Assembly: GCA_002104895.1 (NCBI GenBank)
Contig: MCFG01000415.1
Coordinates: 1 to 50,000 of the forward strand
From: Anaeromyces robustus
Lineage: Eukaryota > Neocallimastigomycota > Neocallimastigomycetes > Neocallimastigales > Neocallimastigaceae
DNA: 50,000 bases
Direction of reading: 5' to 3'
Shown: in pieces, positions 16,630 through 35,620 of the stretch
How positions within the stretch are numbered: the first letter of the stretch is position 1
How the letters are laid out: each line of letters opens with the position of its first letter
Made by a program: the position numbers and the translations under genes
Notes under the pieces: model-generated
The model's input: the letters and a program-made list of their open reading frames with translations, nothing else
Database searches by the model: none
Told to the model about the DNA's origin: nothing

Positions 16630-16640
16630 TTATAATATTA
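16630..16640 (+). repeat. target-site duplication, 5' side of SINE copy 1
   Basis: TTATAATATTA directly precedes the element and is repeated exactly after its A-tail at 17070-17080. A perfect 11-bp flanking repeat is the footprint expected of target-primed reverse transcription. Confidence 0.85.
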
Positions 16641-16658
16641 GTCGACCAGTTTCTATCC

Positions 16659-16670
16659 TGGTTGTTAAAG
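16659..16670 (+). promoter_or_regulatory. candidate Pol III A box (SINE copy 1)
   Basis: TGGTTGTTAAAG resembles the A-box consensus TRGYNNANNNG with one shift. It lies 18 bp from the element's 5' end and 39 bp before the candidate B box, close to tRNA spacing. Confidence 0.5.
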
Positions 16671-16697
16671 CGTTTCCTTAGCATACATAAGGCTTCT

Positions 16698-16708
16698 GGA
16701 TCGACACC
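16698..16708 (+). promoter_or_regulatory. candidate Pol III B box (SINE copy 1)
   Basis: GGATCGACACC matches the B-box consensus GGTTCGANTCC at all but two positions, keeping the core TCGA and the closing CC. Confidence 0.6.
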
Positions 16709-17033
16709 GCATCTACCCCAAGCACAAGTGGTTTTCTCCTTCACGGGTTTTACACTGTGGCAAGGTAGTGCACAGGTATAGTATTTGTGGCGTAGCTACT
16801 CACGCCTCATTAAATAATATAAGTATATGAGTAGATCTTTAAGTCTAATAATGTGGGGTGCGGCTCTAAATTATTGGGCGGTTTCCTTGGTGACTACTAT
16901 TCATATGTGGGGCTTGTAGACTGGACCCGTTATTAAGTTAGCGTTAGGGTTTAAGTACAAATGTAAAATATATGAATATACCAAGGGCGTCGACGCCGAA
17001 AAGGTAAGGCAGGGAATTTAATTCCGATACATT

Positions 17034-17051
17034 CATGTGAAAAATCACATG
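17034..17051 (+). other. 3' hairpin of SINE copy 1
   Basis: CATGTGA and TCACATG pair perfectly around an AAAA loop, about 10 bp before the A-tail. A structured 3' end is what a LINE reverse transcriptase would recognise. That role is inferred. Confidence 0.7.
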
Positions 17052-17069
17052 ATAAGTCTATAAAAAAAA

Positions 17070-17080
17070 TTATAATATTA
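17070..17080 (+). repeat. target-site duplication, 3' side of SINE copy 1
   Basis: TTATAATATTA, identical to the 11 bp just before the element. Confidence 0.85.
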
Positions 17081-19680: not shown

Positions 19681-20041
19681 TTTTTTTTATAGACTTATCA
19701 TGTGATTTTTCACATGAATGTATCGGAATTAAATCCCCTGCCTTACCTTTTCGGCGTCGACGCCCTTGGTATATTCATATATTTTACATTTGTACTTAAA
19801 CCCTAACGCTAACTTAATAACGGGTCCAGTCTACAAGCCCCACATATGAATAGTAGTCACCAAGGAAACCGCCCAATAATTTAGAGCCGCACCCCACATT
19901 ATTAGACTTAAAGATCTACTCATATACTTATATTATTTAATGAGGCGTGAGTAGCTACGCCACAAATACTATACCTGTGCACTACCTTGCCACAGTGTAA
20001 AACCCGTGAAGGAGAAAACCACTTGTGCTTGGGGTAGATGC

Positions 20042-20052
20042 GGTGTCGATCC
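20042..20052 (-). promoter_or_regulatory. candidate Pol III B box (SINE copy 2)
   Basis: On the minus strand this reads GGATCGACACC, identical to copy 1 and 57 bp from the element's 5' end. Confidence 0.6.
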
Positions 20053-20079
20053 AGAAGCCTTATGTATGCTAAGGAAACG

Positions 20080-20091
20080 CTTTAACAACCA
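20080..20091 (-). promoter_or_regulatory. candidate Pol III A box (SINE copy 2)
   Basis: TGGTTGTTAAAG on the minus strand, in the same place and context as in copy 1. Confidence 0.5.
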
Positions 20092-20109
20092 GGATAGAAA
20101 CTGGTCGAC

Positions 20110-32981: not shown

Positions 32982-33262
32982 TATAACACATATATTAATA
33001 AATATTAGTGATAACTATTATATTTTAATTTTACTATTCTTTTTTTTACTTATTAAACTTTTTTTTTTTTATACAAAATATAAAATAAAAAATTATCTAT
33101 TAAAGAATTTCCTTTACAATTATAATAATAATAATAATAATATTTAATAATAAATAATTAATCATTGTTTTATTTTAAAATATTTACAACATATTACAGT
33201 ATAATTTTTTAAACCTTTTTTTTTTTTTTTAAAATTAAAATAAAAATTAAAATAAAATAAAA
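32641..33262 (+). promoter_or_regulatory. upstream region of the cyclin gene
   Basis: A/T-only sequence with an AAT array (about 32939-32981), T runs at about 33059-33070 and 33215-33230, and an A-rich leader just before the ATG. No clear TATA, MCB or SCB site can be picked out, since TATA-like strings are everywhere. Confidence 0.4.
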
Positions 33263-35620
33263 ATGACCGTTAATAATAATAAAAATAATAAAACATGTTT
33301 TTTCACTCCACCACAATCACCAATTATGTTAAAGGATAATAATAATAATAATAATCGAAAATCAAATAATAAGTCAAATGGAAGCAGATACCCTTCTTAT
33401 AAAAGAAAGCAACCACAAGACTTAAAAGTTGATACTAAATGTAATAATAATAATAATTATAATAATAATGAATCTTCTACTTCTAATTCAATATACCCAA
33501 TGACATATCAAATGTTTATCGCTGAAAGACAAGCTAATTATCAAAAAATTAGTTCTGCTTCTTCTAAAACCACTACTAATACAACTTCATCTTCTTCTAC
33601 CATTTCTCAACAAAAGTATATGGAAAAGGTTATGGAAAATACTAATTTAATTTGTTCCTTTTTAAAGACGCTTTGTGTTGGTATGCCAATTGATGATAGT
33701 TATCTTACTTATGGTTTACCAAGTCCAACTTTAACAGATGATCCTTCCAAAAAATCTAATAAAGTTGTTTCTTTAGAAATTTTTGTTGCTAATATTCTTT
33801 ACCGTACTAAATTAACAGATGCTTTTGTTATTGTTGCTTTACTTTTCGCTAATAAATTCATTAAAACTAGACATGAAATAAAAGCAAGATATGAACCATT
33901 ACCTTCTCCACAAAAAAATATTTGTAAAAAGGAGGTTGTTCTTCCAAAATCTATGGCTACTAAATTAGCTCATAATTCTACTTCTAGACGTCGTCATAGT
34001 ATTAGTAAAAGTGAAAGTAAAATGAAAATGAATTCTCAAGCTTTAGAAAGTATATTACAATGTCAAACTACCTCAACCACCACAACCACCGCAACCACAA
34101 CCACCACAACCACAACCACAACCACCACAACCACCACAACCACCACATCAATTAAAGAAAATAATGATCATTATCAATCATTAGATTCTCGTATTGTTGT
34201 TAGTCATCATTATCTTCCAAAGGAAACCTTAGTTAGAACTCAAAAAGATTTAATATTTGCTGCTTTTATTTGTTCTTCTAAATATCTTGATGATAATTCT
34301 TATTGTAATAGTGCTTGGGTAAAACTTACGGATAAAACTTTAAAAGAAGTTTGTGATTTAGAAAGAGAATTTTTAATGACTCTTAATTATAAACTTTACT
34401 TTAGTAATAAAGAATGGGAGGAATGGTTTCAATGGATATCTGATTTTAAAGTTTTATTAGATATTAATATGGCTACTACTCCAGTGGAAGAATCTTCTCC
34501 AAGTAATTCCATTTCTGTACCTTCTCAATCTTTACTTCCTTTAAATGTTTTACAAATTATAAATCAACAAAAACAACAACAACAACAATCTCAATCTCAA
34601 GGACAATCTCAGATACAAGTACAACCTCAAGTACAACCTCAACCTCAACAACCACCACAACCACAACCACAACCAAAAAGACCATTCCAAACTGTACTTC
34701 CATCCCCAGTGGATGTTACTACACCAATTTCTGCTAATAATTCTTCTTTATCTAAAATACCATTTACATTTGATGAAGAAGATATTCAAGCTCAAACTCA
34801 AGCTCAAGCTCAAGCTCAAAATAATGTTAATACTACTTCCTATTTACCAACTTTATCTGCAGTTGCTGCTTATGCTAATAGTTTTCCTTCTTTAGATTAT
34901 ACCACTACTACTTCCACTACTACTTCTACTTCTACTACTACTACTAATACCATTCCAAATTCTTCTTCTTATTGTTTTGTTCGTCGTTGTCCAAGAACTT
35001 TTTCAATGGAAGATATTCGTTTATCTGTTGCTGGTCAACAACCACAACCACAATCACTACCATCATTACAACCACCACAACATCCATCTCATTATTTACA
35101 AACTCAACAACGTTTTAATAAATTAAGACGTTACAGAAGAAATAGTTTTTCTTTCCCATCCTCATCATCATCATTATCATCATCATCAAGAAGAATAACT
35201 ATTACTCCAATGGATTATTTAGAAACTTTTGAATCACAAAAAATGGCTTTTATTTCAAAAGAAGAACCACAATTATCACAATCACATCCAATGAATACAA
35301 CTACTACTTCTAATACTACTACTACTTCTAATACTAGTACTAGTACTACTAATTCTTCTTTTTATATCCCTTTAAATAATAATAATGGCTATAATAATTT
35401 TCTTGTAAATACTATTAATACCTCCTTACTTTCTCAAGTTCAAGATTCTCCTCTTGATTTTACTGAAATTCAAGAATTAAGTCAAAAATATAACTTTGCT
35501 TTTAAAAAACCAATTTTACCAACATTAACTTCTGCTAATCCATTTGATATTGTTAATATGCCAATTAAATTAAATCCATCTATTAATACTTCTACTAATT
35601 TTTTTATGCCATTTTATTAA
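33263..35620 (+). CDS. PCL-type cyclin for a Pho85-like kinase
   Basis: A single-exon gene of 785 residues. The cyclin box is split. Residues 169-203 carry the first helices (SLEIFVANILYRTKLTDAF and VALLFANKFI). Residues 323-391 carry the rest: FAAFICSSKYLDD, then NSAWVKLTDKTLKEVCDLER, then EEWFQW. The W-x3-TD-x4-EV-x2-LERE pattern is that of yeast Pcl1/Pcl2 and other fungal PHO80-like cyclins, which activate the CDK Pho85 in G1, morphogenesis or nutrient signalling. About 100 extra residues sit inside the box, including a Thr18 run (278-295). The N-terminus is Asn-rich with TPPQSP; the long C-terminus is Gln/Pro-, Ser- and Thr-rich. Basic-Ser motifs (RRRHS near 245; RRNS at 625-628) and several S/T-P sites suggest phosphorylation. 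The start is the first ATG after an A-rich leader. The family call is firm; the exact PCL class is not. Confidence 0.85.
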   Translation: MTVNNNKNNKTCFFTPPQSPIMLKDNNNNNNRKSNNKSNGSRYPSYKRKQPQDLKVDTKCNNNNNYNNNESSTSNSIYPMTYQMFIAERQANYQKISSASSKTTTNTTSSSSTISQQKYMEKVMENTNLICSFLKTLCVGMPIDDSYLTYGLPSPTLTDDPSKKSNKVVSLEIFVANILYRTKLTDAFVIVALLFANKFIKTRHEIKARYEPLPSPQKNICKKEVVLPKSMATKLAHNSTSRRRHSISKSESKMKMNSQALESILQCQTTSTTTTTATTTTTTTTTTTTTTTTTTSIKENNDHYQSLDSRIVVSHHYLPKETLVRTQKDLIFAAFICSSKYLDDNSYCNSAWVKLTDKTLKEVCDLEREFLMTLNYKLYFSNKEWEEWFQWISDFKVLLDINMATTPVEESSPSNSISVPSQSLLPLNVLQIINQQKQQQQQSQSQGQSQIQVQPQVQPQPQQPPQPQPQPKRPFQTVLPSPVDVTTPISANNSSLSKIPFTFDEEDIQAQTQAQAQAQNNVNTTSYLPTLSAVAAYANSFPSLDYTTTTSTTTSTSTTTTNTIPNSSSYCFVRRCPRTFSMEDIRLSVAGQQPQPQSLPSLQPPQHPSHYLQTQQRFNKLRRYRRNSFSFPSSSSSLSSSSRRITITPMDYLETFESQKMAFISKEEPQLSQSHPMNTTTTSNTTTTSNTSTSTTNSSFYIPLNNNNGYNNFLVNTINTSLLSQVQDSPLDFTEIQELSQKYNFAFKKPILPTLTSANPFDIVNMPIKLNPSINTSTNFFMPFY
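34073..34146 (+). repeat. Thr-coding CAA/CCA tract inside the cyclin gene
   Basis: ACC and ACA codons alternate irregularly, so the + strand is almost only A and C for over 70 bp. The mixed codons argue against simple recent slippage and suggest that the Thr tract is maintained at protein level. Confidence 0.8.

Follow-up and report, generated by a model that had tools for sequence, protein, structure and literature searches.

A short retroposon and its copies in the genome

The window analyzed in this study, i.e., the whole 50,000-nucleotide stretch of contig MCFG01000415.1 of Anaeromyces robustus (GenBank assembly GCA_002104895.1), contains two full-length copies of a retroposon, which is referred to below as the SINE (short interspersed element). 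Copy 1 occupies 16641..17069 on the forward strand (429 bp, from G16641 to A17069), ends in a tail of eight adenines (A8; 17062..17069), and is flanked by an exact 11-bp target-site duplication, TTATAATATTA, read at 16630..16640 and 17070..17080. Copy 2 lies inverted at 19681..20109 on the reverse strand and has its own target duplication of 20 bp, which is of low complexity. One mismatch in 429 positions separates the two copies (99.8% identity), and one place on contig C117 is likewise 99.8% identical to copy 1. The G+C content is 40.3% in the 429-bp element versus 11.0% in the window minus both copies. An earlier note on this stretch had given the coordinates, a G+C content of about 40%, the exact 11-bp duplication, and the A8 tail, all of which are correct on re-reading the letters. 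No open reading frame of at least 90 codons overlaps the element, and the possibility that it is part of a coding gene is thus not borne out.

The assembly searched consists of 70.17 Mb in 769 contigs. A whole-length search gave 330 candidates, and the 40 that were scored are all 99 to 100% identical to the element. An internal 34-nt pattern (up to 3 mismatches) was found at 49 places, a 5' 24-nt pattern (up to 3 mismatches) at 70 places, and a 3' 20-nt pattern (up to 2 mismatches) at 178 places, with 0 (reversed pattern), 0, and 2 places in the respective controls; the family is thus not limited to the two copies in the window. Target duplications were scored in 62 copies that have a readable tail and both flanks, after tails shorter than 5 nt, short flanks, identities below 95%, and repeat fetches were dropped. 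Exact duplications of at least 7 bp are present in 49 of the 62 copies and those of at least 9 bp in 43, compared with 3.1% and 0.5%, respectively, of the mismatched flank pairs used as the control (n = 3,782). They vary between copies in both sequence and length (7 to 20 bp), which argues against the end of a known DNA transposon. Two bases ahead of the duplication, T is found at 86% of 43 scored sites (background, 43%); the base immediately ahead is biased by the duplication test itself. The A tails, where present, are 7 to 67 nt long. Of the 19 tail-only places that were read, 18 begin to align with the element at bases 140 to 402, some of them diverged or rearranged, and the nineteenth (L085) is cut by the contig end. 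Dispersed copies with varying duplications, A tails, and 5' truncations are, as read from the sequence, the marks of target-primed reverse transcription. The retroposon family proposed in the earlier note thus holds, with many copies, different target duplications, A tails, and SINE-like mobilization.

The 43 full-length copies diverge from their majority sequence by only 0 to 1.2% (median, 0.24%), which points to recent activity of the family. Older relatives are present at 75 to 90% identity. In locus L086, the SINE copy is interrupted by approximately 1.3 kb. An exact 26-nt piece of the element had no match in viral contigs.

Three further observations concern individual loci. L004 (contig C457) and L031 (contig C279) have near-identical flanks on both sides of the SINE and A tails that differ; these are probably the same insertion on two haplotype contigs, judging from the flanks. 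In L058, a 4.4-kb stretch contains an older and a younger SINE copy, and the younger one has an internal deletion. A longer parent element was considered for L037 and L057, in which the SINE continues into a common sequence of approximately 613 bp. This sequence begins with TGAT, ends with ATCA, and has entered the SINE tail at the same CTAT in both loci, which are on different contigs. Its duplications, read by eye, are ACAT and TTAG at two other copies and CTAT in L057; the expected CTAT on the far side was not seen in L037. Further copies were read in L065 to L067. Because it is a separate repeat with its own ends and 4-bp duplications, inserted at CTAT, it was excluded from the SINE; it looks like a miniature inverted-repeat transposable element.

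The head and tail of the element

The 5' domain (bases 1 to 65; 16641..16705, forward strand) is predicted to form one closed stem, in which a 9-bp helix pairs bases 1 to 9 with bases 56 to 65 and has one bulge. A B-box-like sequence, GGATCGACACC, begins at base 58 (16698..16708, forward strand) and matches 8 of the 9 specified bases. Its score is attained anywhere in the element by 1.8% of 1,000 shuffles and at +40 to +80 by none of the 1,000, so the B-box-like sequence proposed earlier is present and better than chance. The same position reads GGTTCAACATT and GGTTCAATATT in two older copies; other older copies differ. The first base of the 43 full-length copies is G in 31, A in 6, and T in 6. 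The predicted fold of the 429 nt is better than that of 100 of 100 shuffles (z = -2.91). The pair C3-G63 is altered on both sides in one diverged copy and broken in two others, which gives the stem weak support. Among six aligned relatives, 8 of the 84 predicted pairs have a two-sided change and the covariation term is unfavorable (+2.66); the RNA fold is therefore not established.

The search of Rfam at the gathering threshold across the window gave no match, and the element thus does not appear to be a structural RNA gene of a known family. The tRNA-like stem-loop described earlier stands as a predicted closed stem of bases 1 to 65, but its likeness to tRNA does not, as there is neither a tRNA match at E ≤ 10 nor an A box. 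The same absence of a covariance-model match, together with an A-box score at the chance level, speaks against a tRNA-derived head. A tRNA-derived SINE (SINE2) was rejected for the young head and for four loci with older copies, a 5S-derived SINE (SINE3) on the lack of a 5S match in the 429 bp, and a 7SL-derived SINE (SINE1) on the lack of a signal recognition particle (SRP) RNA match at E ≤ 10. By its behavior, the element is a SINE family, and by these tests of its sequence it is not a tRNA-, 5S-, or 7SL-SINE.

The tail leads to a long interspersed element (LINE) of the same genome, LINE-B, which was first seen in locus L073. Bases 342 to 390 of the SINE (16982..17030, forward strand) match the C-terminal coding end of LINE-B, i.e., the last codons of its open reading frame, with 88 to 92% identity over 45 to 50 nt (E = 2e-14 to 9e-12). 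The earlier statement that the body of about 350 bp resembles nothing recognizable thus fails for this segment. The match is present in all 10 LINE-B ends read and in none of the 4 ends of LINE families A and C. The hexamer AGTCTA at the tail junction (17055..17060, forward strand), read by eye, also precedes the poly(A) in 9 of the 10 LINE-B ends and in none of the 4 other LINE ends. The SINE therefore shares 49 nt plus its last 6 nt with LINE-B. Separating these shared pieces are approximately 25 nt, among them much of the predicted 3' hairpin CATGTGAAAAATCACATG (17034..17051, forward strand), for which none of the LINE ends read gave a match; none of these ends is thus the exact donor of the tail. 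The 3' end of LINE-B, used as a query, gave 457 candidates, of which 40 were scored; the best alignments at these 40 places are 83 to 100% identical.

In the stretch of LINE-B that was read, an RVT_1 domain is found together with an endonuclease match below the Pfam cut-off. The peptide encoded at the matching segment, KGVDVEKIRHGIYSDT, has a counterpart near the C terminus, as judged by eye, in all eight LINE-B protein relatives read (P0001 to P0008). Since the counterpart occurs in all eight relatives, transfer from the LINE to the SINE is the likely direction. Proteins labeled Orpsp1 (Orpinomyces), Anaeromyces robustus, and Piromyces sp. E2 are among the relatives of the LINE-B protein, in agreement with an anaerobic gut fungus as the host, which the earlier note had assumed. 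The SINE/LINE-B pair suggests that the recognition element of a LINE may be part of its coding sequence. One LINE-B copy (L099; C215:69250-70100) has the C-terminal motif borrowed by the SINE duplicated in frame. The 5' DNA of LINE-B was rejected as the source of the SINE head; one LINE-B copy gives only a 20-nt antisense A/T match.

Long terminal repeats upstream of the SINE and of tRNA genes

The 400-bp flanks of the SINE copies were compared among themselves, a comparison that was aimed at duplicated loci. In the upstream flanks, unlinked copies have common repeats that end at a fixed distance from the SINE; in the downstream flanks, common DNA is found only in the probable allele pair L004/L031 and in L037/L057, which share the inserted repeat. 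The upstream repeats belong to three families of long terminal repeat (LTR) retrotransposons, which lie ahead of SINE base 1 in 7 of the 51 separate loci with an intact 5' end (60 loci minus 9 repeat fetches). Family Y (L045 and L054) has a 460-bp LTR with TG...CA ends that stops 60 nt from SINE base 1 in both loci; it is a solo LTR with the 5-bp duplication TAATT in L054 and adjoins a gag gene (PF03732; E = 8e-8) in L045. Family Z (L018 and L029) has a 593-bp LTR with the duplications ATCAC (L018) and ATTAA (L029), and its ends lie 58 and 60 nt upstream. Family X (L051, L059, and L086) is 1,212 bp long with TG...CA ends, has the 4-bp duplications TCTT (L051) and TTTA (L059), and ends 9, 9, and 8 nt from base 1; only its last 51 bp are inside the fetched stretch in L086. 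Downstream of the SINE, in the flanks fetched and at more than 90% identity, X, Y, and Z were not found apart from 53 nt of the interior of X in L059. L048 has another Z copy, 829 nt ahead of the SINE.

The order of insertion can be read in L059, where the SINE duplication measures 9 bp in the present sequence and lengthens to 12 bp once the flanks of LTR X are joined. LTR X splits this 12-bp duplication and is therefore later than the SINE. In L051, joining the X flanks extends the duplication from 11 to 12 bp, which agrees with L059 by one A only.

The ends of Y and Z were searched for with a common 21-nt pattern, which occurs at 165 places (control, 0); 100 of these ends were listed and compared with 63 of the tRNA genes of the assembly. 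Two of the 100 listed ends are upstream of a tRNA gene on the same strand (C219:21716-21789 and C378:47090-47163), with 71 and 72 nt from the pattern to the gene, which corresponds to 64 to 66 nt between the LTR end and the tRNA start. The number of coincidences expected in a 21-nt window is 0.001. Since tRNA transcription starts approximately 10 bp ahead of the mature sequence, according to a table note in PMC5911963, the SINE and tRNA groups have similar distances to the inferred start site. Three SINE starts at 58 to 60 nt also turned up; they are not an independent test because the pattern was made from those loci, and the 100 listed ends include no SINE beyond these three source loci. C219, C378, C151, and C181 carry many tRNA genes of identical score at intervals of 0.5 to 4 kb, and the intervals on C219 match those on C378; this looks like an amplified or duplicated tRNA array.

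Explanations, known systems, and a fusion with 5S rRNA

We consider it quite likely that the element is a young SINE family with a 3' part borrowed from LINE-B, transcribed by RNA polymerase III (Pol III) and copied by LINE-B. In this view, transcription by Pol III would begin at base 1 and use the B box at +58, and the LINE-B protein would recognize the borrowed 3' region and copy the SINE RNA into A/T-rich sites preceded by TT. Because the LTR ends lie at fixed distances upstream of both the SINE and tRNA genes, we infer that the Pol III machinery is present on the SINE, and the insertions suggest that it assembles there. In the simplest reading, the LTR integration complexes would recognize TFIIIB/Pol III assembled on tRNA genes and SINEs alike. 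We lean, with less confidence, toward the view that Pol III initiation complexes attract the three LTR families and that SINEs serve as their landing pads; each jump of the SINE would then make new LTR targets, and the insertions would be a natural Pol III footprint on a SINE that has a B box and neither a recognizable A box nor small-RNA ancestry. Such positions bring together SINE biology and retrotransposon targeting, which are usually treated apart, and would provide a sequence-only test of Pol III occupancy that is repeatable in other genomes.

Several results weigh against these interpretations. With regard to the promoter, covariance models gave no tRNA, 5S, or SRP match at E ≤ 10 in the element and its head, and tRNA models had no hit in four loci that contain older copies (E ≤ 5); the best A-box score is reached by 63% of shuffles, and hence no A box is recognized. 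The absence of a T5 run from the body is uninformative, as 54% of shuffles likewise lack one. In Dictyostelium, an isolated B box was a poor target of TRE5-A, which PMC5391098 ascribes to poor Pol III recruitment. With regard to the LTR ends, the pattern was built from SINE-adjacent LTRs, which leaves the two tRNA genes as the only independent coincidences; C219 and C378, on which these genes lie, look like related arrays, and 15 of the 17 LTR/tRNA pairs within 2.5 kb are at other distances (at least 525 nt). One of these 15, C151:69153 on the opposite strand, would be at 66 nt if its LTR were 593 bp long. With regard to copying, 13 of the 62 scored copies have no exact duplication of at least 7 bp, and bases 391 to 415 match none of the LINE ends read.

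Of the other explanations, a SINE-like retroposon of RNA polymerase II, i.e., a short mRNA-like or retropseudogene family with a LINE tail, is unlikely, although more probable than the rest. It would account for the poly(A) tail, the lack of an A box, and the variable first base of the full-length copies, and the LTR spacing would then come from a cause such as open chromatin. The spread of no more than 2 nt among the LTR ends of each of the three families, the matching distance at two tRNA genes, and the B box at +58 argue against it. We regard it as very unlikely that the order was reversed, with the LTRs present first and the SINE machinery inserting at a fixed distance downstream of their ends. 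Although the insertion order is unreadable from the duplications in most of the seven loci, the LTR splits the SINE duplication in L059, with the agreement by a single A in L051, and an LTR end of the same type lies at a matching distance from the two tRNA genes, neither of which is a SINE insertion.

Similarly little credence is given to a processed copy family of an unrecognized structural RNA gene, for which the fold that outperforms all shuffles could be cited; the LINE-derived 3' segment fixed in the family and the lack of an Rfam match speak against such an origin. The least credible explanation is that the element has no SINE head of its own and is what remains of a LINE-B after an internal deletion. 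The common 3' segment would fit a remnant, but the 5' stretch of one LINE-B copy has no match beyond the short antisense A/T piece, and the 54 places read of the 70 with the head pattern are all SINE copies, young or old; among the LINE families, this comparison covered the 5' DNA of LINE-B.

The length of the element, which the earlier note had placed above the usual SINE range, is not unusual for fungi: MgSINE of Magnaporthe grisea is 472 bp and AfuSINE2 elements of Aspergillus fumigatus are 140 to 493 bp (PMC5063351). The element resembles both in size and AfuSINE2 in its short target duplications, and one AfuSINE2 element resembles a LINE-like sequence (PMC5063351). On the other hand, the heads of MgSINE and AfuSINE2 are tRNA-related, whereas the present head has neither a tRNA match nor an A box. 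A partly comparable case is the "stringent" type of SINE/LINE pair, such as SINEX-3_CR/L1-1_CR (PMC3747384), in which the 3' ends of a SINE and a LINE in one genome are alike and poly(A) terminates both; unlike that pair, the present SINE shares the C-terminal coding end and the last six bases of the LINE and not the intervening 3' untranslated region. No description of a SINE from gut fungi (Neocallimastigomycota) was found among the open-license papers listed, in keeping with the suggestion that the family may be new.

Insertion next to Pol III genes is known for several retrotransposons. In Schizosaccharomyces japonicus, 13 of 17 sequenced Tj1 inserts are within 12 bp upstream of tRNA genes (PMC4600332), and each of several elements, including Ty3, DGLT-A, and TRE5, has a distance of its own from Pol III genes at which it inserts (PMC5006619). 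The position of family X, 8 to 9 nt upstream of SINE base 1, is similar to those of Tj1 and Ty3 at Pol III starts (PMC4600332 and PMC5006619); however, Tj1 and Ty3 target tRNA and other Pol III genes, whereas the target here would be a mobile SINE. From TRE5-A insertions, Pol III complexes were proposed to be present at loci that have A and B boxes but no tRNA context (PMC5391098). Families Y and Z are comparable with TRE5-A in distance class and in the reasoning by which an insertion is taken as a sign of Pol III assembly (PMC5006619), but TRE5-A is a non-LTR element, whereas Y and Z are LTRs with 5-bp duplications and Y has a gag gene beside it. A review of Pol III-linked targeting mentions SINEs, although not as targets in the portion available (PMC5911963).

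One SINE copy is fused to a 5S rRNA. In L009 (1282-1876 of this locus, on contig C16), a complete 5S rRNA, a 32-nt linker, and the full SINE with its tail are enclosed in one 11-bp duplication, AAATACAAGGT, the first unit of which ends 151 nt upstream of the SINE, exactly at the start of the 5S rRNA. The 5S rRNA (L009:1293-1411) matches RF00001 with 106.9 bits and is complete and in the sense orientation. The linker is purine-rich and was not found elsewhere in the assembly with up to 3 mismatches. A 5S search of the assembly gave 131 candidates; among the 47 that were scored, the retroposed 5S rRNA of L009 is the best match, and one other, weaker match has 62 bits (L109; C135:69600-69870). 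The L109 sequence, which looks bacterial or organellar in type, has no BLAST match to the C16 5S rRNA; such a type is unexpected on contig C135, where a SINE is also present. The fusion could have arisen by read-through from a 5S gene or by a template jump, and it shows a possible first step by which a SINE gains a new head. Template jumps are known from the fungal tripartite chimera WEIRD/Mg-SINE/MGL of M. grisea (PMC2104539). The C16 copy, with 5S rRNA, 32 nt, and SINE in one duplication, resembles this chimera and mammalian 5S/L1 chimeras (PMC13174262). The 5S part of the mammalian chimeras is typically truncated and antisense (PMC13174262), whereas that of C16 is complete and sense and is followed by a linker.

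Elsewhere in the window, the longest reading frame (33251-35617, forward strand) encodes 789 amino acids and has a short cyclin match (PF08613; E = 1.7e-5) that is barely above the Pfam cut-off.
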